Source: Lutjanus erythropterus
Lineage: Eukaryota; Chordata; Actinopteri; Lutjaniformes; Lutjanidae
DNA: 64,000 nucleotides
Assembly: GCA_020091685.1 (NCBI GenBank)
Contig: CM034600.1
Coordinates: 5,965,837 to 6,029,836, forward strand
Direction of reading: 5' to 3'
The position numbers were made by a program, and so were the translations under genes. Within the stretch, counting starts at the first letter, position 1, and each line of letters begins with the position of its first letter. Positions 23,555 through 60,715 of this stretch are shown one piece after another. The notes beneath the pieces were generated by a model, which made no database searches, was not told where the DNA came from, and saw only the letters and a list, made by a program, of their open reading frames with translations.

Positions 23555-23631
23555 GAGAGGGTCCTCTCCAACCGCCCTCCTGTGGAGCCAATGATTTCTC
23601 CAAGGGTACAGAAGGTCTGGCCCAGAAAGTC
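23555..23631 (-). CDS. cpne5/cpne8-like: copine exon 6: end of C2A (DFLGQ...TLGEI)
   Basis: The 77-base exon encodes residues 105-129, starting DFLGQTFCTLGEIIGS and ending GRLERTL, with two bases (TC) of the next codon. DFLGQ-FCTLGEI-GS-GSRLE is characteristic of the CPNE5/8 subgroup. The acceptor is CCCCCCGCAG (a C-run on the minus strand) and the donor GTAAGTCC. In the family the next exon begins near G-(I/V)PGKKCGTI. No such sequence was found on the minus strand between 1 and 23,554, so intron 6 probably extends past the window edge. Confidence 0.96.
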
Positions 23632-23869
23632 CTGCGGGGGGGGACACAGAGAAGAGAGTGAATTAATTGTGTGACGGAGCCAAGAGATGGTCCAAGTTTA
23701 AAACCAGACTCAAACCAACAGATAATAATGTAAATATGACCTGCAGATAACTTAAAGGATAGGTTCACGTTTTTTCACGTCTGTCATAAAACAATACTCC
23801 CATGCCCATATGTACACTGAAATAGTTTAAGGTTGCTGTAATCTTTCCTCCTGTTCATAATGGCCCTTA

Positions 23870-24350
23870 CTTTTTATACCACGTACCACCACAGAAAATA
23901 CTGAGTTCTCCAAGTACCACCTACTGTTTTGCACTATTTGGCGCAATGCTTAATATGGCTGCTTGATTTATTTTTCATATGATCTGCACTTCTCTTCGCA
24001 ATAGTTCCCATTTGGAAGCACTATTGCAGTGTTTTGGAAGAATTCATATTAAGTCTCCTCATTTTCTCAGTGTCCATTACAGTTTAACTACCAGTAATCA
24101 TGGACAACATGTGTACGCGCTATGTGCATGATCATCACTACATAGCAGGCTGATATTTTAACAAAAATACAGGAAAGACAAAACTTTTTAATTTATATTT
24201 CAGTGGTCCCATGTTTTCATTTGAAATTTGTAGTATTTTATAATGTTGTGTGTTCTTAATTTATTTCATTTATATTTTTGATATTCTTCTGCGTACCACT
24301 AGAATGAGTGTTCGTGCCACCAGTGGTTTACGTACTACAGTTTGAGAATC
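23870..24350 (+). repeat. degenerate repeat with CGTACCAC termini
   Basis: ACGTACCACCACAGAAAATA near the left and GTACCACTAGAATGAG, CGTGCCACCAGTGG and GTACTACAGTTTGAGAATC near the right resemble the ends of a fish interspersed repeat. The interior is AT-rich without coding potential. It lies in intron 5. Confidence 0.5.
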
Positions 24351-24568
24351 TAGGCAGTAGTTTGTCCACACCATATTAGCTTCAGCTGAACTTTAGAATA
24401 TGTTTTTATATTGGTTTTTGCACAGAAAACATTTAAATCACTTTGAGGAAGGATTTCTTCATGGCCTGTATAAACAGGAGGAACAATTGTCGCAATAAAA
24501 AAAACCTCTCTCAATCTTCCATAAAACAAAATACTTGAGAAAACTTTTTTAAAAAGTAAAGCAACCAG

Positions 24569-24570
<2 letters not shown>

Positions 24571-24614
<44 letters not shown>
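24571..24614 (+). repeat. (TC)22 microsatellite
   Basis: There are 44 bases of uninterrupted TC in intron 5. Confidence 0.97.
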
Positions 24615-24617
<3 letters not shown>

Positions 24618-26544
24618 ATGCTGCCCTATGTCTTACATCAAACTTAACATTACCATTCAGATTTACACGTGTACTTTATTTCACAAGTTGGGTCATGTTA
24701 TGTGAAATCATCGTAGAAGTTATTTGCCTTTGTGTTAGAGGTCCCTCCCACTGCCACACCCCTCTTTAGCCAATAGGTATTAACAGATAATCAACTGTCC
24801 CTTGACTCCGCCGTCAGAGGCTGGGGGATGTTTGTGGACTGACTGGACGATGGAGAAACTTACACAGGTGCTGGTCGCAGCTAATGAGTATGTTATGTTA
24901 CGTTGTGTCACATTAAATAAGTCATGCACAATAACATAACTTGAATAACTCCAAATTTTAAACAAGTCTCCCTTGACTTTTCACACAAACACAAACCTCA
25001 GTCTCCTGGGTGAAAGTCCTCTGACTCATCCATCCACCCAGGCCTCCTCTCTACACAGACTTTCTCACTCTTTATATTGCTTTCTTCATAATAACTACTG
25101 CCATGAGAGGTCGCCGTCTAACAATAAGCATAAATCCTATAAGCTTTTTGCACAGATAACCTATTGTGGTATTTTTCTGGGGAATATAATGCCCTGCTTG
25201 ATGCGATTCATAACTTTACACTCTCTTTGTCTAAGGCACCAAGGTATGCTCAGTGCTGACAAGATTCCCATTTATTTGAGGGGGTACTGAAGTTTTGCAA
25301 CATATGAGTTCATGAGTTAGCACAGGGGAACCAGCGCATTAAAATATATCAACACTAAAATAATTGCTCTACACATTTGTGGACTGTATGCACTCTAATA
25401 AACAGTGTTAACATTAAAGATAATAGGCTTGATAGGAAGTATGAAAAACAATAAAACCAACAGGGATTGTAATGGAGATATTAAAGTTATTAAAGTTACA
25501 TTAAAGTTTAATCTGATCTTATTGGAGTGTCATTTAATATTATCCATTAAATTTAGGGTTTAATTTCACCTATTATATAAGCATGCATTTGTCCAACTAG
25601 GTCAAGCCCAGGAAGTCTTAGTGGGGTGCATTATTGAGGTGCTTGTTGACCGATTCATTATTCTTAAAAAGACCACTGTGTGCATGAGGCAAATGTCCTA
25701 GTAGAAAAGACTCAGTCAGCAATTTCACTGAACAACAGATTTTTAAGTTTACAGCCAGCCCACAATCTGCAAAGACAAACATATGGCAACATAAAAAAAG
25801 CAGATAGATGACACAACACAATTAAACTGCACAGCAACAAGGGCAGAGCACTACGTGTTGATGTTTGTCATGTGTGGGCGCGAGCAGGTGTAGGTGTGAG
25901 TCCCACAAACTGAATGTGTGTAGCTCCAGTGCATGTCCTGACATGCACAATCTGCTGTAGTGTACTGTTTCAAACAACAACAGCTGCTTTCGCTTTGAAG
26001 TTCTGAAAGTAGTTTTACCTGAGCGAGTGATAAAATGCAGACAGACAAAATGAGGAACAACACAACTGGGGAAGCTTTCCGGATGGGAGCTGTTGGTGTT
26101 CGTCCTTGATGAAATGAGATGAAAGAATGGGAGAAAAATACAATAAAATTAACGTGAATGAAACACCAAAAAAAAACCACAAGTCTCCACTGGGGAAAGT
26201 GAAATATATCGGAAAATAAAAAGTGAAATGTAGTCCCAGGACTCATGAGGATAGTACAATCCGCAGACACAGCACTCACCTTCTGCTCTCCCACACGAGA
26301 TGATTTGTTAGGGAAGAAAAAAAGACTTTGTCACAAGATGGATTTACTGTATACTTAAACACTAGAATAAACAAAATAATAGACTTTATTCAGGCTGAAT
26401 CATCATCGACTGCTTCAATCATTCACTGTAAATGAGCTTTAGCAGTATGAGTAACAATGAATACAATGTGATACATTTGAGGGCTGATGGAAGTTGTCAG
26501 CGCTGAGTCAAAACTGTCATTTGAGTTTGACATACTGTACTTAC

Positions 26545-26584
26545 GTGTTTGGAAATGTTACAGCTTCTGGAGTCCACATTGTAC
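26545..26584 (-). CDS. cpne5/cpne8-like: copine exon 5: C2A calcium-binding loop 3
   Basis: This 40-base micro-exon completes Val91 and encodes YNVDSRSCNISKH (residues 92-104). It is the membrane-facing loop 3 of C2A. In a typical C2 domain the pattern is hydrophobic-Asp-x-Asp. Here the first Asp is Asn93 and the second is Asp95; a further ligand-like Asp105 opens exon 6. The human CPNE5 counterpart, as I remember it, is YDVDSKSPDLSKH, so the insertion of four residues relative to PKC-type C2 loops is a copine feature and not an error. The acceptor is TTTCTCGCAG and the donor GTAAGTAC. It is too short for an ORF search and was found by splice-site and phase matching. Confidence 0.95.
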
Positions 26585-29221
26585 CTGCGAGAAACAAATG
26601 GGTGATAAGACTGGAAGAACTTGTGACAATGTGTTTGAAGACATTTTAGTTCAGATCCCATTGTATTTGCCTTGAAAAAAAAATAGCTGTTTATATTCAA
26701 AGCACTAATTTTCCCATCTCATTCAATTTTTATTTGCTATTAATCATCATCTGATATCCAGGAAACTTGGTGGAATTGTGTCTCTGGGGCCAAGGAAGAA
26801 GACATTAAATTCTGGAATGGATTATGGGATGGATAAACAAATTTTATGACACTTGGGGTGGGGTATGCAGTTCTGGAGAAAGATGTTTGATTGTTGTGCC
26901 TCATTCCCAACTCATAAAATACTTTTGTTGAGTGACTCAGTCTGAGCCACCAAACAAACAATGAGACTCAAGAATCAGTCCAACCCAAAGCATCTGTATT
27001 TGACTACCAGGGAAAGAGACTCGACAACTACCTCTGTTTCTCCAGAATCGTTTACTGCACCTTTAAGGAGAGGGCATTTTTCCTCAGCAAAACAGATGCT
27101 AGTCAATTAATGCTTATATGGTATTACTGAGGCATTAATTATGTTAATATACAAGTATCATGCACATACACTCAAATAAGCACAGGTGGATCATTTACAG
27201 TTATCTGAAGTTACAAGTTTATGCTGAATCTGATGTGGCATGTTGGTACAAGCCTTTCACACATAAAAAAGAAACAGGGATTTAAGATAAGAATGCAAAA
27301 ATGTTCTTGCTTGAAGCCCATTGTCTATTTCTGTACAATATGACATAGATTGGGAAAAAAAATCAGATGAAAGGCAGTGGGCTCTCTTTCTCTTTCTCTC
27401 TAAACAACAGTGAAAAAAATTACCCTAATTTCGGGTTACAACACTTTTCTTCTCTTCAAAACTCTTCAGCAAACTTAATATAGACAGTAGTAGCGCTGCA
27501 GCAGAAACGCCGTCCATGTGGTCACCACAGCCGTGTGAGCCACAGCAGTTCAGTGACGCAGCCAGTGTGGCCCAGGCGCTGTGACAGACCAGGTCTTCAA
27601 ATCTTGAAATCTGGTATAGAGCACTGAATTCTGCAGACTTTGGTCAGAGACCTGGTGTGTGCCAGGTATGTGCCAGGTATATCCCACCAGAGAGCAGAGA
27701 AGCTATTTTTAAAAAAATGAGTAATAACCACTGTAAATGATAATTCTTCATAGTCATTAGCATAAGCCTTTCCTTTTTTATACATTTTTTTCAACACTGA
27801 CTTAAAAGAGCCAAGAATAAAGGAATATCTGAAAGTGCTGTTATCTTGATATTATCTGGAAATCCTACTGCCTAAAACCTCTCACTACTGTAGCATCTGG
27901 GTTGTTCCACAGAAAGCTTATTATTTGGGGAGTAAACAGAGAAAATGACCTTACAAAGCAGGAGGGATGCTCTCAGGTTGGAAATATGCACAACAGCAGC
28001 ATAATAGCAACATCACAAACAATGTTCCTGTTCCATTTTCATGTTTATGCTGTATACAAGCTACTGCTCTGCAGACCCCACTGTGCAGTAAAAGCACACG
28101 TCTGTTCCTTGATTAAAGCAGAGGCATGTAAGTGATTTTCCCTGCTATTGATTGAGAATAACAGGTAGGTGAACTGAACAGAATAACCAAGTGGGTAAAC
28201 AGAGACTAATTTAATCAGTGGGGCTATCAGGCGGTCTTGGTAAGTGGCCTGTTTTTTTAATATCCTTCCATGACATTCTAGCATCTAATTTTAGTAGTGA
28301 TTGGCCTGTTCATTTATCCTAACCAGGCAAAATGATCTGTTCACCAAACTGAAGACCTGCAGAGAGAGAAAATATTCAAATGTAATCAAAGACATTGCTA
28401 CTTTTACTCGGATCCCCTGAATCCACATTCAAGCATTTACATAGCAGAACGTATCAGAGTTTAGAAATTAAGGAGAAATATGTAATATTACTGTGCTGAA
28501 TTGTGATATGATACATCATCACACATTGAGGAAGCATTCCAAGTTGAAATTTTAGCTTCTCAGACAACGATACAGCCAGCATGTTCTCCTATGAAATTTC
28601 CAGTCAGGTCCAGAACATCTGTTTTTGTTTGTCCATTTTATATTTATTAGAGTTCAAACTAATGCTGAATGTTTGCCCAATAAGCAAGTAGCTGTTCGTG
28701 AGTCCTAAGAAATCATTAATAATCCTTTAGAAGTGGAGTAAATGTGTATAAACTGAGCAATATGTTAATGAAGTCCAGAAGGCAGTCATTGAACTCTGCC
28801 TCCAGAGTGTGTATTTTCAGAGCAGTGGGCTTTTTTTTTTTGGTTTTGGGGATAATTGGCTTAGCTTTACTTTGGGAGACATTTACAAAAGATGATCAAC
28901 TTGCAATGTAGGACTCATCCTTACTTGTCATTGTCAAAGCATAATGTTGTGTTTGTCTTGTGCTTTTGCAGGTTCAGAGACCCTGCAGTCTGCAGAGATC
29001 CTGCCTGAGCTTTGAGTTTGGGAAGGAGGGGGCGGGGGAAAAGAACTCTCCTCAAACATACTGTAGATCATATAGTAAAAAGGGATTTAACCTTAATATA
29101 ACATCAGCTCTATTTAGACTGCAGTTCTCTTTTTTGAACAAGGATCTTACATATTTCTCCTTTAAATTAATTCAGTTTTATTCAGACAAAAAGTAAATAA
29201 AATACTGGCAAAGCTACTTAC
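26585..29221 (-). other. copine intron 4, unassigned parts
   Basis: Apart from the repeat at 26,750-26,925, nothing recognisable was found. A plus-strand acceptor-like GTGCTTTTGCAG at 28,961-28,972 has no coding continuation. Confidence 0.8.
26750..26925 (+). repeat. interspersed repeat fragment
   Basis: CAGGAAACTTGGTGGAATTG and GGGGCCAAGGAAGAAGAC match my memory of a fish repeat containing 'ggaaactaggtgg...gggccaaggaagaa'. It lies in intron 4, close to exon 5. The edges are uncertain. Confidence 0.45.
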
Positions 29222-29325
29222 ACATCAAACCTTAGATTTTGTTTCTCTTCAAAGAAGAAATCCAGAACAAACTTCCTGACGAAATCTGGATTCCGAGTGT
29301 TATCGATTACCTCTGTCCTGCCAAA
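29222..29325 (-). CDS. cpne5/cpne8-like: copine exon 4: FGRTEV...NPDF segment of C2A
   Basis: The 104-base exon encodes residues 57-90 plus two bases of codon 91. It starts [19 protein letters not shown] and ends [10 protein letters not shown]. The pattern (R)TEVI-NT-NPDF-RKF-FFEE is the strongest copine signature in the window. Acceptor CTATTTTTGTAG and donor GTAAGTAG are both strong. One oddity is Arg67 in NTRNPDF, where family members usually have Leu (NTLNP). The exon fits its neighbours exactly: exon 3 ends in Glu56 at phase 0, and exon 5 supplies the G that completes Val91. Confidence 0.97.
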
Positions 29326-29559
29326 CTACAAAAATAGAAATGAAGTGATAATTGGTGGTATTAGCAGCATTGATTCAAGAGTCAATATATATTATCAAAG
29401 TAATAATCAAGAGAAAATACAGCAGAGAAAGAAGTGAATGAAATTCATGAGATTCAGCAGCAATCCATATTACCATTGTAACATTTCACACAGGGACTGG
29501 ATCCATAAATACAAATCTCCTTTGTGAAAATATGACCACACTGTATCACAGTGAGCTTC

Positions 29560-29815
29560 ATTGTACTGTGTGCTAAATCTCTCTGTCCCCAGAGAAATCA
29601 GCCCGCTACATTAGAGCCAGCTCCCCACCTCGCGAGCCCACAGAGTCCTGGTCCCAGCCTCCCTCCTGGGCCAGGCCGTTTCTCCATCTCCGTGACAATC
29701 ACACCAGTAATCCCCCTGGTGGACTGCCAGCCTCGCCTCCGTGGCCCGGCCTGACAGCAGCGTGTAATGAGCTATTGATCTTGGCACTGCCTCACCACAG
29801 CCTCAATACCTCTAC
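29560..29815. other. GC-rich, non-repetitive block in intron 3
   Basis: About 250 bases, 235 bases upstream (gene sense) of exon 4, are clearly richer in G+C and CpG than the surrounding intron. They contain CCACCTCGCGAGCCCACAGA and GTGTAATGAGCTATTGATC. A 67-codon plus-strand frame here is Pro-rich, lacks splice support and resembles nothing. The block is a candidate conserved regulatory element. Confidence 0.4.
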
Positions 29816-31638
29816 TCATGTCTTTAGTGTCCAGTGCACATAATCCATGCTATCAACTGCCTCCCCAGCCTATCCATTACCAAAGCCTCATTGGAGAGTG
29901 TATTGGACCTCAGAACCTACCTGCTGCATCGACCTGAAAGGGAAAATCCCAAGATATTTCCTAGTAGTGTTTCTATTTTTAGGGATGGAGGCCTCTGGTT
30001 TATAATCTCATTCAGGCATGATTGGTTAATGGGTGCCGGGGTGTTGTGGGTGAAGGTTAGGGAATTGCTTTGTTACTGAGGGAGATGAAAGAGTAAGCAG
30101 AGCAGTTTATTGGTTTCAATATAGGATATGGATGTAGACCTATCAAATGGGTCTATTACAAATATATCTTCTAACTATCTCTATCTTACCTTTTTGATTT
30201 ACTGTTCTTCAGTGAACCTCTGGAACAAACATTCATGGCTATATTAGCTCTCTATGATGCGCACCAAGTAAACATAAGTTCAATAAGGAATGAATGAATG
30301 TTTTAATGATTCTTGAATCTTAATGAATCTTTTACTTTTTAACAAAACGTGTCACAATACTCACCTCGCCAGTTTAAAAATTATGCCATCTGAAACTGAA
30401 TTGTGTTCAATAATTTTGAAGAAATATCTACGCAGTTATTTTGACTGATATTGCAATTGAGAAATGACTTGCAATTTTGGAGGAAAGAATAATTAATTAT
30501 TCTCATTTTTGTTGAAAAACACATTAAAACGATTATGGTGATGTTTTCTGAAGTCTAGAGAATGATGTGTTGGCCAGAACATGTCTGCAGCACCACAATA
30601 TTTACTTTAAAATGGTATTTTGACACACCTCTTGCCTTTAACAAATATTGCACATCCTGTGATTTGAAAATTGCATTAGACCATATTATGATTCAGATAA
30701 AATTTTGATAAATTGTTCAGCCCTTCTGAAAAACATTAAAAATTAAGGCTTTTCATAAGTTTGTTTGTCTAAATGTTGCCCTCAGACAACTGTTTACCAT
30801 TGTGGAACAGCTTTTAGGAATTAATGCGGTAAGGAGTGTAAGGATATTTCAGCAAACTCAACATCTATCAACCAAAACTTCATAACCCTCTTTAAAACTA
30901 GATAACGGTAATAGAGTAATATTTCAGTGTTTGATCATTTGTGTTAGATTTTATGCTATTAGTTTCCTCTGGGCTCTGCTTCTTTTTAAAGCACTGCACC
31001 ATAATTGAGGATGCATTGTGTGTATTGTATAAAAGGCCAAAAAATGAGTATGTTACCTTGAGGCAACACTGTACCATAAAGGATTAAACAACAACAACAG
31101 TGATGCACAAAAGGAGGATCTGTGCTTAGAGTTGTTTCCCATGTGTATATCTGCACTGCTGTTTTGTGTTGACTAGTAAAAGTTTTGTATTGTACATGTA
31201 TTGTGTTTGGGTAAATTACATGGAGTTTATGCAGACCACAGTACAATAGTTGCATTAGTAGAAAGCATTTTTAAACAGTTCATTGTACATCTGCAGGTCT
31301 CAAGCTGGCAACTGGGTCTGAATTAAAGTTTATTTTTAACAGGTATTATAGTAAAAGTACAGCAGTACAGCTGTCGCACAATACTTATTGTGTAGGATAA
31401 GTTATTGGATAGCGTTTCTCTGTTGCCTTTTGTGCTGTGCCAAGTTCTAACAATAACGTGGGTGGGTCAGCTGTGTTTAGCTGCAGAATTGAGTGAACTG
31501 ACCCTGAATTTAGCACTTTGTTTGTCTTGTACGGCATGACCTTGGCAGAAGTCATGTGGACTCCAGAGCTGGAAAGAACCCAGAATAAAGTGTAGGCCTA
31601 TTCAAGTTCATAATTATTCAAAAGGCTATACACATATC

Positions 31639-31663
31639 AGCTAATAATTTATTATTATTAGCT
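31639..31663. repeat. 10 bp inverted repeat, 5-base loop
   Basis: AGCTAATAAT and ATTATTAGCT are perfect complements. The sequence is AT-rich and short, so chance is plausible. Confidence 0.7.
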
Positions 31664-31767
31664 ATTGACTTTGAATATGATTCCCAAGACTGGGTCATAC
31701 CTATGTTCCCTGGCTCTATATAGCACATAACAGGCAAGAGGTATAGACTGATAGATATTACTTGCAC

Positions 31768-32080
31768 TTTTTCTAATGGCCAGCAGGGGGCATCTCCACT
31801 GGTTGTAAAACTAAGTCTTTTTGTATGCATCCTTATAGCAAAATGACCCAAGTTCTCACTTGATGTATGACCTCAGTACACAGTTTGCTAATGAGCTACT
31901 GGTCTCAATTGCTAGTTTCAAGTCTTCTTCAACACAGCATGATGTTAATTTTGTAAATTATGGTCCCATTTAGAGTAAAATAGATTGTTGAAGTACTGAT
32001 CAATCATAAATCAAAATTGTGTTACTGCATTGCGTATTTGCTGCCTAAACTGTTTTCAGAAACATATTTTAGTGTACTAG
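31768..32080 (+). repeat. dispersed repeat family D, copy 1 (left part)
   Basis: It begins GGCCAGCAGGGGGCATCTCC, continues AGCATGATGTTAATTTTGTA, AAATTATGGTCCCATTTAGA and ACTGATCAATCATAAATCAA, and ends TCAGAAACATATTTTAGTGT. The last two blocks recur at 36,410-36,500 and 38,415-38,510. A further part may follow at 32,560-32,760. Confidence 0.7.
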
Positions 32081-32559
32081 TCTTTATTTATTTGATTTAT
32101 GCTACATATGTGTCCCTATACAAATAAACATTAATGCCACACACCATATAACCTAAGCTAATTTGCAATGCCAGCCACTAGCTGGGCCTTTAAGATACAA
32201 AACACTCAACAATTTAACTGCAACAAATACACAAAGGGCAGTGCAAATACAAACAACAAGAAAATACTAACAGACCAATACATGACATAAACGTCAATAC
32301 ATAATATAGCACCACAGAATAAGAAACACATTATTCATGACTACATAACAGATTCCTCTACAAAAACTGTCTCAGTTTGAGTTTACAGTGATCCAAATCA
32401 GGATCCAGTTTGAGTTCTATCGGTAAAAGAATTCCACATGTTAATTTCTCGGACAGAAAAATCTGTTAAACATCCAACTGGATGCTCCATGTGTTATTGA
32501 GCCTGAAGCTCTGAGTGGAACCACTGGGTCACTGAGCACCTGAGGAGCCTTTGTTGCCG

Positions 32560-32760
32560 GGCAGGCTGCCATTACCTCCTGGTGAATGGATGAGCCAAGA
32601 CCAAGCACTGCCCAACCAGTATTATGTCACCCACCAGCTCCATGCTCTGGTTACAAACACAAGGTATACCCCATAATGTCAAACTCAGGGCCTCAAAACA
32701 GTAACCCATAAACAATGGTTGACATCACAATTGGTTCACACTTGGTTTGGGGTAGGAATA
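32560..32760 (+). repeat. dispersed repeat family D, right part
   Basis: CCACCAGCTCCATGCTCTGG, CCCCATAATGTCAAACTC, CCTCAAAACAGTAACCCATA and TTGGTTCACACTTGG parallel the right half of the 38,265-38,720 copy (CAATAATGACAAACTTGAGG, TTCAAAACAGTAGTCCACAA). The sequence between 32,080 and 32,560 is not recognised. Confidence 0.6.
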
Positions 32761-33139
32761 GGAGTTAAAATAGAACAAAGGGCCCTGTGAACATAGACCC
32801 CTGGGAAGTAAGGACCCTGTGGAACCTGGGAACATAAAGCTAATGAAAACTTGGTTTAAAAACCCAAAGAAATCTTCTATAATGCTTGAATATATTCATG
32901 ATGTGCAACAATCAATTTCAAACGCCATTGTGCGTTTATGTAGGACCTCAGAGTGAGAAGCTTATTGTTTTTTTCCAGTGCCTTTAATGCAAACTTCTTT
33001 GCAAACCTTTGCAAAATATTTAATTGCAAGAGATTTGTGACAAAGGAACAATTCACTGGAGTAGTTTGTGAACTACTGTAGCTAGCTGTAGCTGTTATTA
33101 TGCTACCCACAGAATATGGCTATAATACATGCTAGAATA

Positions 33140-33164
33140 GTCTGTTGAATACAATTCAACAGAC
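33140..33164. repeat. 11 bp perfect inverted repeat, 3-base loop
   Basis: The arms are GTCTGTTGAAT and ATTCAACAGAC. One of a group of tight hairpins between 33 and 50 kb. Confidence 0.9.
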
Positions 33165-34259
33165 ATATTTGCACCACTGACTCGTGTCTCTTAAAAGTTT
33201 TCAAACTACTCAGTTTTGTGGAGCAGTTTATATTCTGACAACAGACGGTGAATAAAATTTGCTAATGGCTTCACAAATGAAGGACTCCACCCTCTGATCT
33301 CTTTTAGGTTAGCACTATCAAGATGTGATGCTGTTGGTCAATGTCATAAATCACTCAGCTCACCAAAATTGTACTTTGTGTGGATTTACTTCAAGCGAAT
33401 GACTTATCATGCTGATTATGCTGAAGTGCGCTTTCACCACAAGATTTTGCAGTTTTAAATGCTGATATGACCATGCCTTTACTCTTGATTTACAGCATGT
33501 AATTACACAACAGAACTGTCTGTCTGTAGTCCTCCGTGGGCAACAATGATGATGATTTGTGGGAGAATGTAAGTGGAGGATCATAACCATGGGCAGGGGT
33601 AAATGGAAACGGCAACAACAGTGAACAGGCAGAAAAGAACACAAAATAAAAACAGCCTTACACAAAGCTTTAAATAGAAAACACTCCAGGATGAAGGGTC
33701 AAGGGTGGACTAGTTGGAGAAATCATGTTACACCTTCAGGATATAGGCCAAGTGATAAGAAAAAAAATGCTACAGACTGATCCCCTGCTGAAGCCCTATT
33801 TGACAAAATTTCATTTACAAACTGTATATATTATAATTGGGAGTATAGCCATAATTGGAAACATGAGGTTAAAGGGAAACTAAGGATTTGTCAGGTTTTC
33901 ATTCAAGAACAATTATCTGCTTGTGGTGTTGATATGTGTACAGCTGACAGCGAGATGTTTACTCTGCTGATTGTGGTGCAATTCATGCCGTGTTTTTGAT
34001 TAAGCCCTGCCACATGGAATAAAAAGGTGTGAGGTGTCTTGAAGTGAGGGGATCAGTGGCAGCAAAGCCCTCACTGGCACATCAGTGTTGACTTTGAATT
34101 TGCAAATGGGCAAATACGCCTTTTAAAAACTGAATGTCAAAGGCAAATTAGATGAGGGAAAATAAGGCTAAGAGATGACATGATAATGTGTCTGTGCGCC
34201 GGAGAGACGTACTGGGCGGAAAAAAAGGAATGGAATTGAAAGGAGCAGCAATGAATGGA

Positions 34260-34273
34260 AGGTCACATGACCT
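34260..34273. promoter_or_regulatory. nuclear-receptor-like inverted half-sites
   Basis: AGGTCA-CA-TGACCT is an inverted repeat of the nuclear-receptor half-site with a 2-base spacer. Its core GTCACATGAC also fits an E-box/M-box. It lies in intron 3, about 480 bases downstream (gene sense) of exon 3. A function is only inferred. Confidence 0.25.
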
Positions 34274-34756: not shown

Positions 34757-34803
34757 CTCCCTCCATTCTTTGGTTCCCACAGCCTGCAAATACAGCACAA
34801 CCA
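34757..34803 (-). CDS. cpne5/cpne8-like: copine exon 3: C2A middle strand
   Basis: This 47-base exon finishes codon 41 and encodes VVLYLQAVGTKEWRE (residues 42-56). The equivalent human stretch is roughly -CV-YTQ---NKQWRE before FGRTEV. The acceptor is CTTTCCCTTCAAG (an AAG acceptor after a good pyrimidine tract) and the donor is GTAAGT. A second AG inside the exon (TATTTGCAG) also looks like an acceptor. Using it would drop the start of the exon and break the frame with exon 2, so the upstream AAG is preferred. The exon ends on a codon boundary and exon 4 opens with Phe-Gly-Arg in phase 0. Confidence 0.93.
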
Positions 34804-35822: not shown

Positions 35823-35874
35823 AAGACTTCGGTGATGCTACCAACATATTTAAGTTAACCTAATGATATACCCA

Positions 35875-44388: not shown

Positions 44389-44941
44389 TAGGGTTGGGCG
44401 ATAGGACGACTATATTGTCTATCGACGACAGGCTGAATCCATCGCTGATTGCTTTTTTGTTTTTAGGGCGATTTTTCATGTTATTTCTCTAATGTAATAG
44501 TCTGCAGAGTGACAGCCTCTGCTCTGCACCACATTCTCATCCAGTGGCGCAGTTCACACCCACTCAGCCGACCATGAGCGCTCTGAGCTGGGTGACGAGT
44601 GAGAGGAAAACAGCCTGCAGAGTCAGACTCTTTAAACTCTTTTCATCCTGTAAAGTGAGGATTTATTTTGACCAAACCAGAGTTGGTGATTGCTGAAAGA
44701 GTGGACAGACTAACAAAGATGGTTTTGGTGAGTTTTACATGTTTTTCTGTCGAGTTTAAATGAAGTGTATTTTCTGAGGAGTTAACGAGCCAACACAGTG
44801 AATTTGCCGCTTGTGCACATCCCCCAGCTGTGACCTCAGAGGACAGGAGGAGGTGGGTGCGGGGTACGATGATATCGCCAATCACTGATTGACGGGCTGA
44901 CAATGATTGTTTGGAAAATTTTAGCATATCGCCCAACTCTA
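44389..44941. mobile_element. 553 bp non-autonomous hAT-type transposon
   Basis: The ends are TAGGGTTGGGCGATA and TATCGCCCAACTCTA, 15-base inverted repeats with one mismatch. Both are flanked by the identical 8-base direct repeat TGGTGCAT (44,381-44,388 and 44,942-44,949), the target-duplication length expected of the hAT superfamily. The interior is GC-richer than the intron (AGTGGCGCAGTTCACACCCA region) and has no transposase frame, so it must have been mobilised in trans. The clean duplication suggests a fairly young insertion. Confidence 0.93.
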
Positions 44942-49707: not shown

Positions 49708-49758
49708 GAAACATGAACACAGTTCACATTTTCTGTTGCCATTTTGTTTGCAATTGAC

Positions 49759-49828: not shown

Positions 49829-49844
49829 GGACTTTAAACTATGC

Positions 49845-49935
49845 TGATTTTTTTTAATGAAGATTAACTGGTTGTCAAATTTGTTGATTAATTTTCTATC
49901 ACCTGACTAATTGATAAATCAATCAAATGTTTCAC
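49845..49935 (+). repeat. AT-rich MITE terminal fragment
   Basis: GATTAACTGGTTGTCAAATT and TTGTTGATTAATTTTCTATC with CTAATTGATAAATCAATC resemble one end of the AT-rich MITE present in intron 1. Confidence 0.45.
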
Positions 49936-50088
49936 CACATGGGAAACGTCACTTCTGATGTGCATTCAGGTGTCTTATGTCAAATAAGGAGTCACAATGA
50001 CAAAATGACAAAAATGTGTCATCCATCATGACTTGATGATCATGTTAAGCAATTTAAGAACTCTACCAGGTCGTGGTTTTGGTGGTTT

Positions 50089-50090
<2 letters not shown>

Positions 50091-50123
<33 letters not shown>
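50091..50123 (+). repeat. (TG)16 microsatellite
   Basis: About 33 bases of TG in intron 2. Confidence 0.95.
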
Positions 50124-50124
<1 letters not shown>

Positions 50125-50756
50125 GACATAAGCCCTGCTATTATAGATTTTTTTTTTCTGTTTTTCTTTATATTTAGTCCCACCTGTCTCCTTCTATAAA
50201 TTGACTGTCATCTAACCTGATGGAGAAAACTATTTTCTCCTGTTGGACTGAGTCACTATGTTACTTAACCACTTCCTCTGTGATGCATATTACATTCCCC
50301 CACATAGATGAGTATGTTCATATGTGTTAATAGCTATGTTTCCATTCAAATGTATCATAAATTTTAACTAAATTTCAAGAAAATTGGCAGAAGAAAATGC
50401 AAATGAATTGTTTCCACCCACTACTCTTAGGCAATTACTAGTAGTTGAGTCATTGAGATAAGCAGTAGTTGGCGCCAATTCTCTAATTAGAAAACCACAA
50501 CACCATTTACAAAAAAGAGGACACAACAAGATGACGTAATTAGAAGGGTGCCAGTTGAACCTCAAATGATGAAAACAATAGAGAGCACTGTGAAGGACTG
50601 GAATGGAAACGTGACATTTCTATTTGTTTGACATATTAATGTGAGTGAGGTCCCATCAGATCTGTACGGAGTGATTATGTTTATATTATTATGTCATGGG
50701 AGTGATGACATTGGAGACCCTTGGAACAGAAACAGTTGATCAGACATGTATGTTGA

Positions 50757-51126
50757 AGGACCAGTGTGTAGGATTTAGTGGCATCTCAGAGTGAGCTTGC
50801 AATCACCTCATCTCACTTTCTCTAAACATGCAGGAGAAAGAACGTGGCCACGAAGCATGTGCAAAGCACAAAACGCCCTATCTGGAGCAAGTGTGTGGTT
50901 TGTTCATTTTGGGCCATTGTAGAAACGTTGCAGCACAACATGGCAGCCACCATTAAAGAGGATCCACTCCTTCTGTACGTAGACAGGCCTTATTCTAACG
51001 TACCAACAAGACAATAATTCTTATTTTCATGGGATTAGACACTAATGAAAACATTCTTATGAATATTATATTCCATTTATGCCATATTCTGCCAATAAAT
51101 CCCCATAAATCTTAAACATTGGCCCT
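50757..51126. mobile_element. MITE family E, copy 2 (370 bp)
   Basis: The left end is AGGACCAGTGTGTAGGATTT and the right end TAAATCTTAAACATTGGCCC. The ends pair over 21 positions with about four mismatches. GTGTGTGGTTTGTTCATTTT and CATTCTTATGAATATTATAT lie inside. It is longer than copy 1, which lacks the middle. No clear target duplication was seen. Confidence 0.85.
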
Positions 51127-51294
51127 GTAAGTGTTCACTGTGTCAGAACGTCTTCTAAAAAGTCGGTTCCATCTTCCATTAGGAACCTTGAGCAAACACA
51201 AAAAAGTTTTTGTAAAGCTGAAGGAGATTTTTGGAATTTTGCCATTTCATTCAACCCTTTAGAATGCAATACAGTGCCTCAGCACTGCATAAAA

Positions 51295-51440
51295 ATATAT
51301 TGTAGAGTTCTGGAGATATCAACCACAGTGATGTCTGCCTTCTCTGTAATATAATAGGACTAGATGGCACTCAGCTTGTGGTGCTCAAAAAAATACATTT
51401 AAAAAATTCAAAACCAGTGTCTCTTTCCAAAAAACATTAT
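51295..51440 (+). repeat. dispersed repeat family B, copy 2 (partial)
   Basis: TGATGTCTGCCTTCTCTGTA, CTCAGCTTGTGGTGCTC and AAAAAAATACATTTAAAAAA match 11,285-11,380. The foldback half is absent. Confidence 0.75.
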
Positions 51441-51959
51441 TCTATAGTACCTCTGACATGCTCAAAGTGCAATTTAGTTCAGTTCTATTGGAGAGAAGTC
51501 TGAACTACCTTTGACTCTTTGCCAGTAAGCCATGTGGGCCTTTTTGTTATGTTCATTGGGCTAATACAGAGTTGGGTTTAGGATTGTAACTTTTATTTAA
51601 TTGTAGTTTACTCAGAACTGTGATTTTATTTCTACTCAGGGCTGGTTTGTTTGATAATCTGGCCAGGCATCTCCCTGAAGTCACATTTCATTTTCTATAT
51701 CTGGCAACAAAAGATAGAAACATGCAACAAATTGACTCCTTATCTATTTGCATGTTACTCCCCTCTCCCCTTGACCAGCTTGGTGTTGTAACATACAGCT
51801 GACCCATTTACTGAGTTCTACCTGTTAGTTGCGAACAATATTAACATCAGAATAAAGTGATTAACTCGCCTTCAGCTCTGTGAAAAAAATACTATTTTTG
51901 ACCTGATTGAATATTGTGTATTTTTGCTTTCTCTGTCTTGTGAAGTTACTATATTTAGC

Positions 51960-52090
51960 ATTGACACAATCAGCGACTACGGTAATTCCTGCCGTACAAG
52001 TAGCTCTGATTAAGCGCGCATAATTTGATTAAATCGTTTGCATGAGAAGTGGAAAAGGAATGACTGACTGAGTGGGTCAATCTCCTCTCT
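51960..52090. other. candidate conserved non-coding block, intron 2
   Basis: CTCTGATTAAGCGCGCATAA and GATTAAATCGTTTGCATGAG combine homeodomain-like TTAA/TAAT cores with an octamer-like TTTGCAT in a non-repetitive context with CpGs. Conservation is untested. Confidence 0.25.
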
Positions 52091-53134
52091 CCTGTACCGC
52101 ACACACACTGTTAATTACTTCCTTCCTGTCATAAACTGCAGTCACATGCTGCCAAGGCATTTGCTCCCATGTAGCTTTGCTCCCACTGCTGCCAAATATC
52201 CAACAGCTGAGACTCGGCAGCCATAAAGGCTGGACATGAACAGCGGGGAGCAGCTGTGCAAGTTAAACATATCAGGTAACTTTTTTAAGGGTTTAACTTA
52301 TGAAAACACCTGTAGACAAGTGTATCCAGATACATGTCCAGATAACACTCAGGTAAGTGGAGAGAATAACAGCACTCTGTATTTTGTTGTATTGTAATGG
52401 ACAGAAAGTGAGTTTCTCACTGCTGTTATGTTATCATTGTGCTCTGAGATGTTAGTTCAGATAAACACATTCAGGATAAATGGACTGTTGCTGTTGCTGC
52501 TATTTCCAGGATGTTAGTGAACGTGTCAGATAAGTGGTTGTTAAGACTTCAACTTCCTATGACAGCCTCAGTTTGAGAGTTAGTACACTTGTTAGAGGCA
52601 ATTAGATCAGATGGCAGCAGATCACAAGGTGATGCACATTAGATCATTATACTGTGTGAAACATCCAGAGTGGTCAAAACCTAAAGCCGGGACTGTCAGG
52701 AGCACAAGAAAGTTTAATATAGGACCGGACACAAGTTTAGCTTCAATTAAAGCTCTGCTATGCCCTATTCTGCTAATATGGTCACGTATATCGGTGCTCA
52801 CAATAACATATGGCTGCTGAAGTGTCCAAGCACCCACAAAATCGTGCCTATGCCAGATGACATTAGACCTAATGCAAGAACATTCTCATATTCTTATCTT
52901 ATCCTATCTGTCTCTGGCTTTTTTTTGATACATTGGGCTTGTACAAGTGTGACACATCAAATTCACAAACACTCCTAACTTTAAAAAAAGAAAATTATAA
53001 TATATAATAATCCACATTAACATGATGAATTCTACCTGTGTATATTTGTGCACACGTTCATGAGGACTGTAAGTTTGCGTAATTATCACCCCAATAATAA
53101 CATAAGGTTAAGCGTCCTGCCCCGTATGTCAGGG

Positions 53135-53365
53135 GGTGTTCATTCATAAAAAATGGAATAAATGTCTAAGTGGACTTTTGCACCAGATTTGAAGAAATTT
53201 CTTCAAGGAGTTCCAGAGATATTACCTTCATGAGAATGGTAAGGATGCGAGGCAACAGTGACCTTGAACTTTGACCAGTGATCAAAAATAAAGTTCCTCC
53301 TGCCACAGCTGTCACCGGTGAGGCGGTATGAACATCCTCTTGCCACAGCAAGGCAATCAATGACC
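53135..53365 (+). repeat. dispersed repeat family F, copy 1
   Basis: TTTTGCACCAGATTTGAAGA, TCCAGAGATATTACCTTCAT, CAGTGACCTTGAACTTTGAC and CCACAGCTGTCACCGGTGAG match a familiar fish repeat. A partner lies at 55,015-55,275. Confidence 0.7.
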
Positions 53366-54068
53366 ACAACAGGAGGAGGGGGTCAAGGTGAATTTTCCAC
53401 CACAACAGAACACCTGCCATAATATGTGATGTTGCATTGTCAGACATTGCAAAAGAGGATGTTCCCCTGGACACAGCTTTACATGTACCTGCATAGAGCC
53501 AACATGCCTGACCGTATAGCCACTTTGAATTACTGATGACATTGTTAAGTTGTATGAATACATTTAAATTTATATTTCAAACTGCAGTGTCAAACAGGAT
53601 AATATCAACATAACTATTAAGTGTAATTTTATAGCATTTTCAAACTCAAAATTGCTTCAAAATAATTAAATAAACTATCCATTAGTGAAAAACAGCAGAC
53701 TAACTGCACACCACTTCAACAACAGGTCTGTACGACTCATAAATTGTGAATATAAATTCAAAATACAAGAAATTTTATTCTCCTAACTCACTTGTACAAA
53801 CCACTTAAGAACAAATCTGCTTGTATGAGCAGTTTTTACAGGAGGCCTATTGTGCTGTATTGCAGCAAAAGTGAGCCAGGTTCAACAAAATGACACAAAA
53901 TGAGGGGTTTTTTTGTTTTGTTTTGTTGTGTTTTTTCGAACCCACTGTGTTGGCACCTCCGCTAGGCAGGGTTGCCAGGTCTGTATGACAAAACAGCCAA
54001 ATGGAAAATTAAAACTAGTCCAACGGCCAATAAAATCTGGACCAGTGAGTAGAGAGCATTAGGCACAT

Positions 54069-54110
54069 TGTGTGTGTGTTTGTGTGTGTGTGTGTATGTA
54101 TGTATGTGTA
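54069..54110 (+). repeat. TG / TGTA simple sequence
   Basis: An interrupted (TG)n passes into (TGTA)n over about 40 bases. Confidence 0.9.
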
Positions 54111-55014
54111 CTTGGGCATGCATACATGTGACATGAGCCATGTCCATGTGTGTCTGTGCTGATCTGGAGTCAGTTTGGGTATAAAGAAATGATTTAATTT
54201 ATAATATGGATTTTTATTTATTGATATTATTAATGTAATTTGCATGTAAAATAGGTAAACACAACCAAGGGACGAAAAAGTTAACCTGCAGCAGCACTTT
54301 GAAAGTAGCCCAATTCCACGGGAGAACCTGGCAACCCTGCGGCTGGACCAACACAGTGGTCTCACTGAAATGGAAAAGGCAGGAGGGGGTGTATTTTTTC
54401 ACACTTTGTTAATGTTTGTCTGAGCACAATCTTTATGTGTATGAAACTAAGTATCATCAAGTAAAGACGTTTCAGCACCCACTGGAATACTTACAGTACT
54501 GACAATTAAGTTAATAATCCTTAATTAGTGTGCAAATTAATGCACTGAATCTTTGCATAATTATCACTATGAAACTAGACATTTCCAAGTGAAACAAGAT
54601 GACTTTTCTTCAAAGTTAAGATGCTGCTGCACCTCAGACTCGTATTATAGATTTCTGTCATTTTTAAACTTGTTTTTCTACAGTACTTGCAGAATTATTT
54701 TTGTTCTTCTGTTTTGTTTTGTTTTTTTCATTGGGTTTCAACCGGTGAGGACAGAAAAGGTAAGAATTTCATCATACAGTACAACTTATTGTGCATACGC
54801 ACAAAACTAGAATTACCACCTCACATTTGTATGCCAACACCAACCAGACAAGTTGCAGTTCGTCAGACTGAGTCAGACTCACATATGTATTGAAGACTTT
54901 GAAGGAATTTTACAAAAAAGGTATTAAGTGTATTTTTTGGCAAAACTGAAGTTGAATAATTTCCAATGAGAAACATTCTGTCTTTACTATTTTTACAGAA
55001 GAGCACAGCAGAGC

Positions 55015-55275
55015 ATTATGATGTCACAGTGGCACTGACATTTGACCTTCAAATTCTAATCAGTTCATTCTTAAGTCCAAGTGGGCCTTTGTGTCAAATT
55101 TGAAGAAATTCTGGTCATGAGAAAGGGACAGACATGAGGTCACAGTGACCTTTGACCACCAAAATCTCCTCAGTTCATCCTTGAGTCTAAACAGAGATGT
55201 GTACATGAAAAAAAAGAAAGAGAAGAAATACCTTTGAGGCACAAGATATTCACAAGAATGGGACAGACGAACGTA
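55015..55275 (+). repeat. dispersed repeat family F, copy 2
   Basis: ACATTTGACCTTCAAATTCT, GTGTCAAATTTGAAGAAATT, GTCACAGTGACCTTTGACCA and GAATGGGACAGACGAACG are parallel to copy 1, with the segment order partly duplicated. Confidence 0.7.
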
Positions 55276-56639
55276 TGGAGTAGTGTCTCTTCTCATTACA
55301 TCTTCCAGCTGTGGTGCATATAGCAACAGGCAGCTGTGAGCAGTGTTCACCACATCTGCTTCTGCTGCCTGGACTAAAAGAAAGGCTCGTGCTCTGGTTG
55401 GAGCCCAATAGCTCCTCAGGCTGCCCTCACATCTGCAGCCAGTCGCAGACATTAGCACTCGAGCCTCAAGACCAGCATGGGTGAGGTGTTAGACAGCTGT
55501 GCTCTCCAGCTGTGTAACTCATTTAAAGCCAGACTGCCAGGCTGATTTGGGGTAACGTTTGTCTGAGAAAGTTGTACCGTATGGGTTCTCAAAGGTACCA
55601 CGCTGTTCAGAGGCTGCTGGACCTGTTTTAGTTGGTGAAGGCAGAAAGCTTCAGTGTCAGGAGGGCAAACAGGATAAACACCAAAAACCTGTAACAGAGC
55701 AGTCTGGATTACCAGGTGCACAAAAGATGCAGTCTGTTATTTTCTTTATACGGCTCTTGGACTTTTTCTAGCCTTTTTGGGAGTACAAATGCACTTAGTC
55801 TTGTTGTCAGAACATTTCCAACTAAAAGACTTTCTTGGCAGTTTTCTGTTGCCGTGTCTGCCACACTCTCTGCTCTGATGATTGTGATCAGAGACAGCTC
55901 TTCATCTGCAACGCTAAAACTTATTGTTTTATTATGGATTTAAACAAAGCTGGATCTGAAAGTAGTTTTCTTCCTTAATAAAATTCTTGAGAAGTGCATC
56001 AGTTGATCCCTTGTAACAGGCAGCTAAGTTTGATTACTATGTTTTACAGTTTCATCAAATGACTGAGGCAACGCACAATATTTTCTGTCCCAGTTTCACA
56101 TTGTAACTAATTTTTTTGACCGCCTTTACCATGCTCTTTTTGTGTTTATTTAATGTTATGCAGGGCTTTGTGTCTGCCCTCCTCGGCTCTGCATGTTTTA
56201 TTCCCTTATTTTCATCACTGTAAAAGATTTTGTGCTTTGATATTGAAATAAATATTCAAAACATGTAATTCATTTATAGATGGGTGATGGGAGGTTTCAT
56301 GTATTTAGAAATGAAGCGCGTTGCTGGAATCTGATCTGAAGAGGGTAAATTTGTATGCAGCACCTGTCCTTGTAAACTTTTTTAGTACAATCCTATGAGT
56401 TTAGGTAGTCAGCTTTGGCTAGTTAACATGACACACTGAATTCAACTAAGACATAACACATGAGACTGAGACTATACACAAAGTTAGCTCTACAGGTATG
56501 TGACCTGCAGCATAGTTTAACAACACACAACCTCCAGTTTCTGGATATTATATTAATAATGTCAGCGTGTATGACAACATACCAGGTACTAGATATGAGC
56601 TAAATGAGCTGTTTTACAAAACTGCTGGAGCTAATAGAT

Positions 56640-56765
56640 AATAGACCTTTTTCACAGCAGCCATTTTGACATGAGGAGGGTAAACACCGGTGTTACCATA
56701 ATTAAGGCTTTGTTCCATTCAGGTCAAACAGAGTCAGGCTGCTGCTATTATCCATTGTGCATTTA
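56640..56765 (+). repeat. interspersed repeat (GACCTTTTTCACAGCAGCC)
   Basis: GACCTTTTTCACAGCAGCCA, AACACCGGTGTTACCATAAT and AAGGCTTTGTTCCATTCAGG are landmarks of a fish repeat recalled from memory. Confidence 0.55.
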
Positions 56766-57800
56766 TGTTAATCAAGCCATAATCTCTCAGTCATGTAGGT
56801 TTGTTTTCTACCCCCATCGTGCCCGTGCATATCACTCCTGACTCCTGACATTGCTGGACACCCGTCTACACCACAGGCACTGAGAATTCTCAATTCTGAT
56901 TGTCTGGCAGCTGTGGATTAACATCTAGTAATCATCAGACACCTGGATTACCTCTTAATGAGCTGGTATTAAACTTTTGGTAAAGATGGTGAGCTTTTGT
57001 TATCCGTTATGTTATGTAAACAAATGCCCATTAACCCGTTAACCCTAACCCAACCCTACACCAACTCCAAACCCAACTGCAGGTCGAGTGAGTGTTTTCG
57101 GATGTGGAATTCAATTAGGATCATACACAGCTCAGACACCAGATGCCTGGTTAAGATCTGCATCTCCAGAATCCCACATTAAAAAAATAACCTTCCCTAA
57201 ATACCAAAAAAAAGTTTATCCACCCTTTGTGAGGTTGTGGAATTCATTCCAGCATTAGAACAGTAGTACATGCACTTTAAGAGGCAGGATTTTTTTTAAC
57301 CCTCACTTGTCTTCCGGCTCTGACATCCTCCAGCCCATCAATCCCTGTCTTTTTTCAGTTCCACAACATACTGACGCTCAGCCAACCTCAAGTCCTGACC
57401 TTTCTTCAACCTTGACTTTTCAGCCCATCCTCACTCTTTCATTTTATCAGCAGTGTTGCCACCCATTGAAAGCTCTGACCTTCTGGGTTATTTAACAGTG
57501 CAAGAGCCAGATGAAAGTCAAATTCATTGTATCTTACTGCTTTTCTTGCTGTAAGGAAGCAAACCAGTCTACAAAAAAACATAAATAAATAGAGAGAGCA
57601 ACAAGAAGGTGATTTTCTGGCCTCAGCTGAACAATAAAGTTGTGTACTATACATAGCTATGGAGTTGATTTTCAGTTCAATATCCAAATTGGCAATAAAA
57701 ATCTACTTTTACTTTAATTTATTCTCTCAAGTAATGACCAACAAAACAAATAATGTTCTATCATTAACAGCTTTTCGGACAACAGAGAGCTCATACTTAC

Positions 57801-57841
57801 CAGGATCTGACTTAGAGAATGTATCCACATCCAGTAGACTC
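57801..57841 (-). CDS. cpne5/cpne8-like: copine exon 2: C2A calcium-binding loop 1
   Basis: This 41-base exon completes Arg27 and encodes SLLDVDTFSKSDP (residues 28-40), then gives the first base of codon 41. The motif is loop 1 of a type II C2 domain. Asp33 and Asp39 sit where calcium-ligating aspartates are expected, and Ser-Lys-Ser-Asp-Pro is near-invariant in copines. The acceptor reads TTTCCATAG and the donor GTAAGTAT. Thr34 followed by Phe resembles CPNE8 (DTF) more than CPNE5 (DMF), from memory of the human proteins. Intron 1 upstream is 2,794 bases and intron 2 downstream is 22,997 bases. Confidence 0.95.
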
Positions 57842-58389
57842 CTATGGAAACAGCAACAGTACAGGTAAAGATTTATCAGAGGGCTGCAAATGGGTCCAAA
57901 TTAGGTTAGAATAGCACAGACTCATTTATGATGATGTCTGTGTAAAGAGGCCACATTATTACAATAAAACTGAAAATAAAATCTGTAATAAAATCCTTTC
58001 CATCTCATACTTCCAGCCCGTCCTCACCATCATTTTTATTTCACTCTATTACAGTCTGTCTTTTTGTCAGTTTCTCAGTCATGTTAAACACTTTGAATTC
58101 CACTGACCTGTCTGAAAAATGCTATACAAGTAAAGTTTGAATGAATATTTCATTTTACAACCTATATCTATGTTTATTGTGAGGCAGTGACCTCTAGTGG
58201 CAGGAGCAGTGTAAAGAGCGAGAAAAGTCCTGGTATGGAGGAGGTCGGGGTGGATGGATAGGTAAAACAAGGATAAGACTTTCACCCATGAGACCAGGCT
58301 TCATGTTCCATGTGAAATCAAAAGTCAACTTTGATTTATTTTATAATTTAAGGTACTGAATTTACATCCCATATGCGATTTACATCACT

Positions 58390-58712
58390 TACCTTAAATA
58401 AGTCTTCAAAGATTACTCGATTAATCAATTACAAATTGACTATTAAATTAATCACCTATACTGTTTTGATGATAGATTAATAGTTGTCCTTCATGTTTTC
58501 ATTTAGAAATGTACAAATTCTCTCATTTCAGCTTGTCAAATGTGAATATTTTCTGGTTTCTGTTCTCCTTTATGACAGTGAACTGAATATCTTTGGGTTG
58601 TGACATTTGAGTCATCTTTGTGGACCAAACAACTCATCGATTAATCAATTAATTGAGAAAACAATTGACAGATTAAGCAATTAGATAAATTATCTTCAAT
58701 TGCAGCCCTACA
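58390..58712 (-). mobile_element. AT-rich MITE in intron 1, minus-oriented copy
   Basis: It starts near ACTCGATTAATCAATTACAA, contains TGAACTGAATATCTTTGGGT, and ends ATCTTCAATTGCAGCCCTAC. Read on the minus strand it begins GTAGGGCTGCAATTG. It pairs with the plus-oriented copy at 59,990-60,298. Confidence 0.8.
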
Positions 58713-59237
58713 TAAGTCACATGACATAACAAAACATATTTATTTTAACACAAACCATGATGTTTTCTTAAATATTGCAACCATTTCACAATGATAACCA
58801 TGTGTTTCCACATATATGTTTTGGAAGTAACTGGCGGTCTACTTATTCTTTTGTTTAGGTATGAGGACGTATTGCAGAATTCAATTATGTTGAACTGTTG
58901 TATCAGCCAAAAAAACCCCAAAAAACTAACCAATGGAGGTAGCGGTAGACCACCAGTTCCCATGTTCTGCGAGGTAAAATGACTGTTTTTGCCAAAGGAG
59001 ACTGGTGGCTTTGTCGAGAGCGATATTTAGCTTGATGGTTTCTGACAGTAAGGTAAAGTGGTGAAAATATTATAAATATAACATACATTTAAACTGGTAT
59101 TGATTTTTTTGTTGTTGTTTTTGTGGGGTTAAAATAAGATTTGCTGCTGACCCTGTCCACAGCAGTACCTTGCTTAGCTTTCCTACAATAGACTATAGAC
59201 AATAGACAACAGACAGACTAATAAGTACCTCAGACAA

Positions 59238-59258
59238 CCCCCCCCCCCCAAAAAAAAA
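59238..59258 (+). repeat. (C)12(A)9 homopolymers
   Basis: Twelve C followed directly by nine A in intron 1. Confidence 0.9.
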
Positions 59259-59562
59259 CAAAAAATCTGAACTATCCCTTTAAGGCAGAAAATAGAAAAT
59301 ACCACAAATCAACAATAAAATGTTGTGCAAAACCAAGGTTAAACTTGAAATACACTTAATATTTCTGGAATGTCATTTTAGATGTTTTGAATCTTATGAG
59401 AGGATTGAATCTCCCTGTCTGAGCTCTCCCACCCTCCCAGGTTTTGGCTGTCTAACCCAGGTGTCTGGTCACTTCAAGTCTGGCTGATCTCAGGAGGGAC
59501 AATACAGGAGCAACAGCCATTCATTATTCAGGACTGGACTGGGAAGACAGTCCGCCACACCA

Positions 59563-59660
59563 CCAGGCAGCTAGGCAGGCAGGTAGGCAGGCTGACAGTC
59601 TGCAAAACCCTGACTGAGTTTTACTGCTCCGTCAGTCAGTCAGCCAGCCAGCCAGTCGGT
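59563..59660 (+). repeat. CAGG / CAGT / CAGC tetranucleotide tracts
   Basis: AGGCAGGCAGGTAGGCAGGC at 59,573-59,592 and GTCAGTCAGTCAGCCAGCCA at 59,631-59,650 are interrupted tetranucleotide repeats about 40 bases apart. Confidence 0.8.
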
Positions 59661-59921
59661 AAGCAGAGCAGCCGACCATTCAGCTACGGCAGCATGTCAG
59701 CAAACAGTCAATTCAGGTGCACATGAATGCTGTTTTGATTCAGGGTAATAAAATTAATACTAATGTATTCCTGGGGATTATTACTGTAGTTACTGACAAT
59801 ATTCCATTCATGCATTTTATGGAAAACATTTATGAACCTGCATCATACAGGAGACCATCTATAACTTGACGCTTTACAATGTCACACAAGCAATAATCAA
59901 CCATGCACATCGGTCACAGAC

Positions 59922-59922
<1 letters not shown>

Positions 59923-59986
<64 letters not shown>

Positions 59987-59989
59987 GAT
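59923..59989 (+). repeat. (GATA)~17 microsatellite
   Basis: About 67 bases of GATA with one GATAAATA interruption, directly beside the next MITE. Confidence 0.97.
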
Positions 59990-60298
59990 TAGCTTCAACT
60001 AATTATCATTTTCATTACTGATTAATCAGTCAATTATTTTCTTGAGTAATTGATTAGTTGTTCGGTCAATAAAATGTCTGACAATGCAGAGTAAATGTTG
60101 ATCACTTTTTTCAAAAGCCGAAGGTGATGTCCTCAAATGTCTTATTTTGTCCACAACCCAAAGACATTCAGTTTACTCTCAGAGACAAGTAAAGAAACCA
60201 GACAATATTTATCCAACATTTGAGAAGTTGAAGTCAGAGAATCTGTATATTTTGTTTTTATAAAAAAAATAACTCAAAATGAATAATTGATCATAGAT
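59990..60298 (+). mobile_element. AT-rich MITE in intron 1, plus-oriented copy
   Basis: It starts TTAGCTTCAACTAATTATCA, contains TGTCCTCAAATGTCTTATTT, CACAACCCAAAGACATTCAG and AAAGAAACCAGACAATATTT, and ends near AATAATTGATCATAG. It is the inverse of the 58.4 kb copy. Confidence 0.8.
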
Positions 60299-60635
60299 TC
60301 ATAGATAGATAGCAGTGGCCAGTAATCTAAAAAAAAAATCTTACATTTTACAAAAATGAATGTTTGTTTTCAGAGGTAGTGGATGTGGAGGCACATCAGG
60401 GAAATAACCTCAGCAGAAGGTATCAGTGTTGCATCAGAAGAAAACAAATAACTCTCTACACAACATCCACATTCACCACACACATCTAATTAACTTCTAT
60501 CACTTTGATGCTGCTTGCTTATCAATCTGAATTTCATATCAGACTGGAGCAGGTGACATTACAGACTTCTGATCCGTCTTTCATCTTGATTAGATCTACT
60601 GTAAATGTATCTGAATGAGAGTTATATGACCTTAC

Positions 60636-60715
60636 CGGCACGACACGGTAACTTCTATTTTAGTTGCAGGGACTCTGGTGTTGAGAGGGTCGAATTCCCC
60701 TATTGATGCCATCAT
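60636..60715 (-). CDS. cpne5/cpne8-like: copine exon 1: start codon and N-terminus
   Basis: The exon encodes residues 1-26 plus two bases of codon 27 (CG|G, Arg). It runs from the methionine pair MMASIGEFDPLN into the first strand of C2A, VPATKIEVTVSC, which matches the copine pattern IPATKVEI-VSC. The start is supported by an in-frame TGA nine bases upstream (minus-strand context TGA GCC GAG ATG ATG G). Two ATGs are in tandem; the second has A at -3 and G at +4, so it may be the one used. The donor is GTAAGG just after position 60636. Exon 2 supplies the missing G and continues SLLDVDTF in frame. Confidence 0.93.

Follow-up and report, generated by a model that had tools for sequence, protein, structure and literature searches.

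The question raised by this locus is whether six short open stretches on the minus strand of a 64,000-nucleotide window (the whole stretch of DNA analyzed, C10:5965837-6029836, from a genome of 937.6 Mb in 444 contigs) belong to an intact copine gene and, if so, to which copine. We give a probability of about 0.93 to the reading that they are part of a protein-coding copine gene that is intact and represents copine-9 within the copine 5/8/9 group, most likely in a teleost genome.

Human CPNE8 was aligned to the minus strand of C10:5916001-6049836 (133.8 kb) with a splice-aware dynamic program and the alignment was rerun with other guides. The lengths (4/4) and 24/24 domain-boundary residues of the human guide sequences match Table 1 of a review on copines (PMC10968396), an agreement that checks the register but not every residue. 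The same six window exons were found whether the guide was CPNE8, CPNE9, CPNE5 or the more distant CPNE4:

60636..60715, minus strand: coding exon 1, 80 nt; residues 1-26 plus 2 nt; donor gtaaggtc
57801..57841, minus strand: coding exon 2, 41 nt; C2A loop 1 (RSLLDVDTFSKSDP); AG acceptor, gtaagtat donor
34757..34803, minus strand: coding exon 3, 47 nt; VVVLYLQAVGTKEWRE
29222..29325, minus strand: coding exon 4, 104 nt; encodes 35 residues
26545..26584, minus strand: coding exon 5, 40 nt; C2A loop 3, YNVDSRSCNISKH
23555..23631, minus strand: coding exon 6, 77 nt; end of C2A (DFLGQTFCTLGEIIGSTGGRLERTL)
1..23554, minus strand: window part of intron 6 (full length 29,272 nt), next feature exon 7

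From the exon 1 donor through the exon 6 acceptor, the limits were identical in all six minus-strand runs with real copine guides. The first aligned residue depended on the guide; when CPNE8 or CPNE4 was aligned to the window alone, the last one varied too. As the guides differ in their first aligned position within exon 1, the start codon was picked by inspection and the exon was lengthened by six bases, reaching an ATG ATG pair at 60715-60710; an in-frame TGA lies nine bases upstream (60724-60722). A perfect (GAG)14 repeat (60999-61040), CTC on the gene strand, precedes the start codon by approximately 285-325 bases and likely lies in the promoter or 5' UTR.

The six exons comprise 389 nt (129 codons plus 2 nt) and, when spliced, encode 129 residues without a stop. 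GT-AG boundaries and compatible phases are seen at all five junctions in the window, and a GT likewise stands at the end of exon 6. An earlier sequence-only reading of this DNA had proposed six exons of 40-104 bases with agreeing splice sites and phases and no stop, and the spliced alignment reproduced its exon limits and its count of 129 residues exactly. Its minus-strand placement was likewise borne out, with window-only scores of 404 (CPNE9), 445 (CPNE8) and 156 (CPNE4) versus 44-47 on the plus strand with the same three guides.

Outside the window, 14 further exons (7-20) follow on the same strand between contig positions 5960118 and 5917202, the first of them, exon 7, at C10 5960118-5960055. 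The whole gene has 20 exons, a coding sequence of 1,671 nt including the stop codon and a product of 556 amino acids. Its introns range from 241 to 29,272 nt, intron 6 being the longest, and 19/19 are GT-AG. The span of at least 60.7 kb suggested earlier was true but low, as the gene covers 109,350 bp from start to stop. In the spliced protein, the copine A-domain (PF07002) was found at residues 322-541 (E 2.2e-87, profile positions 1-218 of 218) together with two C2 stretches (PF00168, E 1e-34 for the whole spliced protein). The copine family assignment of the sequence-only reading is supported by the 14 downstream exons, which complete both C2 domains and the A-domain. The first 129 residues alone matched Pfam C2 with an E value of 6.7e-16; among solved structures, the plant copine BONZAI 1 came out best (E 5e-17), with synaptotagmin-1 at 4.2e-6. 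Because the window holds 6 of the 20 coding exons and 129 of the 556 residues (23%), its portion is the N-terminal quarter of the protein, essentially the C2A domain, and not the 5' half of the gene as previously thought. The exon limits had been read correctly to the base and are confirmed here, and the recovery of such small exons across long introns from raw sequence matters mainly as a check of method. The gene itself is a copine gene of an ordinary, well-conserved vertebrate type. Rfam searches at the gathering threshold gave no match in the window, and no tRNA was found there.

We then consider which copine the gene encodes. Over the full length, the protein is identical to human CPNE9 at 452/551 residues (82.0%), to CPNE5 at 439/556 (79.0%), to CPNE8 at 434/556 (78.1%) and to CPNE4 at 274/540 (50.7%), while the first 129 residues alone hardly separate CPNE9, CPNE5 and CPNE8 (75.0, 72.1 and 71.3%). 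CPNE5 and CPNE8 share a residue that CPNE9 lacks at 63 sites, and at these the gene carries the CPNE9 residue 25 times, the 5/8 residue 29 times and another residue 9 times. The CPNE8 residue is present at 4/40 sites where CPNE8 alone differs and the CPNE5 residue at 5/30 sites where CPNE5 alone differs. A tree was built with FastTree from 217 columns, using CPNE4 as root and 100 bootstraps. The window gene grouped with a second copy at C2:4.28-4.58 Mb in 100/100 bootstraps, and these two grouped with CPNE9 in 97/100 (local support 0.97). Copies at C10:18.5 and C2:19 Mb fell weakly with CPNE5 (51/100) and those on C22 and C12 weakly with CPNE8 (42/100). The C12 copy, represented by only 151 of the 217 columns, was placed next to the root and apart from C22, yet is most like the C22 copy (141/151). 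Taken together, these comparisons indicate that the gene is most likely a copine-9 member rather than copine-5 or copine-8. We had initially read it as copine-8, an assignment overturned by the comparison with CPNE9 in terms of identity, diagnostic sites and tree.

It is improbable, given the 97/100 grouping with CPNE9, that the gene is nevertheless a copine-8 or copine-5 member, as might be argued from the small gaps between 82.0, 79.0 and 78.1% identity, from the 29 copine-9-diagnostic sites (out of 63) that carry the 5/8 residue and from the failure to find the CPNE9 neighbors locally. A separate candidate for copine-8 is present elsewhere in the genome. The C22 copy agrees with CPNE8 at 207/217 sites and lies approximately 120 kb from an ABCD-type gene. 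This resembles the arrangement in human, where CPNE8 lies near ABCD2, and makes the C22 copy the candidate for copine-8. The copy at C10:18.5 Mb is closest to CPNE5 (198/217). Of the neighbors of human CPNE9 (BRPF1, OGG1 and ARPC4), none was found near the gene: OGG1 is located at C10:25.8 Mb (20 Mb off), the nearest BRPF-type match on C10 at 9.03 Mb (3 Mb from the gene) and ARPC4 on another contig, C2 (13.0 and 23.0 Mb). We treat the missing synteny as rearrangement and do not let neighbors define the family of what we regard as a copine-9 gene.

A Pfam search revealed at least 14 copine loci in the genome. Eight of these have a long A-domain exon near profile positions 105-185 and six, the window gene among them, a first A-domain exon near positions 1-59. 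Three A-domain loci lie within approximately 25 kb on one strand at C21:22716669-22741920 and seem to form a tandem array belonging to a different copine group. In addition to the window gene, the 5/8/9 group comprises the copies at C2:4.28-4.58 Mb, on C22, on C12, at C10:18.5 Mb and at C2:19 Mb. These would fit three copy pairs derived from the teleost genome duplication, the copine-9 pair alone being firm. Between its exons 4 and 20 the C2 duplicate (C2:4283320-4575184) extends over approximately 292 kb, versus the 109 kb that the window gene occupies between its start and stop codons. Eight of the 20 exons were matched in the DNA examined and could be compared by codon, the other 12 being without a match; 134/289 codons differ from the window gene and only 13 residues change. 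In exon 4, 33 of 34 whole codons specify the same residue in both copies. With so few residue changes among so many codon differences, both copies are under purifying selection.

These codon data bear on the idea that the locus is a decayed or untranscribed pseudogene, which the long, repeat-containing introns might suggest. We consider this very unlikely, as the frame is open across all 20 exons, the splice sites are intact and 121 of the 134 codon differences from the C2 duplicate are silent; a retrocopy is ruled out because the gene has introns. The possibility that short open pieces flanked by splice-like sequence aligned by chance has a negligible probability and is rejected: single exons encode 13-35 residues, exons 2 and 3 were weak alone in the first probe, which did not report exons 1 and 5, and chance extra exons do occur in guide alignments (17005-16939 with the CPNE9 guide on the window only and 3158-3099 with the CPNE5 guide on the whole region, each seen in one run only and dropped), but the 129 residues match a C2 domain and their joint minus-strand scores of 404 and 445 are far above those of shuffled CPNE9 proteins on the window (43-52 in 8/8 cases) and of the plus strand.

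Several other elements were noted in the window. Within intron 6, positions 21600-22070 on the plus strand hold a decayed transposase fragment with frame breaks, presumably Tc1/mariner-like as judged from its motifs. The open reading frame at 21635-22000 gave no significant Pfam match, and a stretch similar to 21600-22070 (76%) was found at another locus examined. An open frame on the minus strand at 20989-21378 showed a weak match to Pfam Zn_ribbon_LapB that falls short of the curated cut-off (E 3.4e-4), covers a 16-residue stretch and is probably due to chance. Interspersed repeats at 11164-11577, 44459-44793, 58491-58611 and 60006-60290 have approximately 74-98% identity to other loci examined; among these loci, the repeat at 44459-44793 occurs at a single other place, approximately 52 kb away on C10.

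The two copine-9 copies differ from the remainder of the group in the C2A domain. Comparison with synaptotagmin predicts five aspartate ligands for calcium. Exon 2 (DTFSKSD) and exon 5 (Y-D-x-D) each contribute a pair, and the fifth opens exon 6. Exon 5, which is 40 nt long in 6/6 group copies of the genome, encodes YNVDSRSCNISKH in the window gene and YNVDTRSSNLSKH in the C2 duplicate (C2:4312245-4312284), versus YDVDSKSPDLSKH, YDIDSKSPDLAKH, YDVDSKSANLSKH and YDLDCKSDNLSKH in the four remaining copies. The predicted loop-3 ligand is thus Asn in 2/2 copine-9 copies and Asp in 4/4 others. The human guide sequences follow the same division, with Asn at this site in CPNE9 and Asp in copine-8 and copine-5; BONZAI 1 also has Asp (VYDVD). 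A search of window positions 23501-29400 for an alternative exon 5 found none, either as a 40-nt AG-GT exon or by the motif Y-[DN]-x-D. With Asn replacing one of these five Asp residues, calcium binding by the copine-9 C2A domain might be altered, perhaps weakened. It is conceivable, though on balance we doubt it, that the C2A calcium site of the copine-9 class was already altered before fish and mammals diverged and has been kept so, leaving calcium sensing to C2B and the A-domain. If so, the copine-9 C2A domain would be a calcium-weak or partner-binding module. The Asp-to-Asn change is a modest lead, open to testing, as to how copine-9 might differ from copines 5 and 8. Among the literature matches listed, from a search that was not aimed at the loop-3 change, no title concerned a fish copine-9.

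According to the review cited above, copines bind calcium and phospholipids through their C2 domains, of which C2B is the dominant one in membrane binding, and bind partner proteins via the A-domain; copines 5, 8 and 9 form one group (PMC10968396). In mouse retina, Cpne9 is enriched in S-cone bipolar cells and has been used to mark them (PMC7308094). On the basis of these two sources, the protein can be expected to act as a calcium-responsive membrane adaptor, perhaps a neuronal one. By analogy with the family, it would be cytosolic at rest and, upon a rise in calcium, would move to phosphatidylserine-rich membranes, chiefly by means of C2B, whereupon the A-domain would carry bound partner proteins to the membrane.

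Among known systems, human CPNE9 (Q8IYJ1, 553 amino acids in Table 1 of PMC10968396) shares the order C2A-C2B-A-domain and 82.0% identity over 551 aligned residues with the window gene. The fish protein differs in its length of 556 amino acids and at both ends, and its gene has a coding span of 109 kb and a duplicate on C2. The Asn in C2A loop 3 is common to both, the human residue being that of the guide sequence. Copine-8 and copine-5 belong to the same group, whose six copies in this genome all have the 40-nt exon 5, and reach 78-79% identity; however, they have Asp at C2A loop 3 (human), and the C22, C12, C10:18.5 and C2:19 Mb copies are closer to them. Among solved structures, C2A is matched best by the plant copine BONZAI 1 (PDB 6kxk, 6kxu; E 5e-17), which is distant and carries Asp at the loop-3 site.
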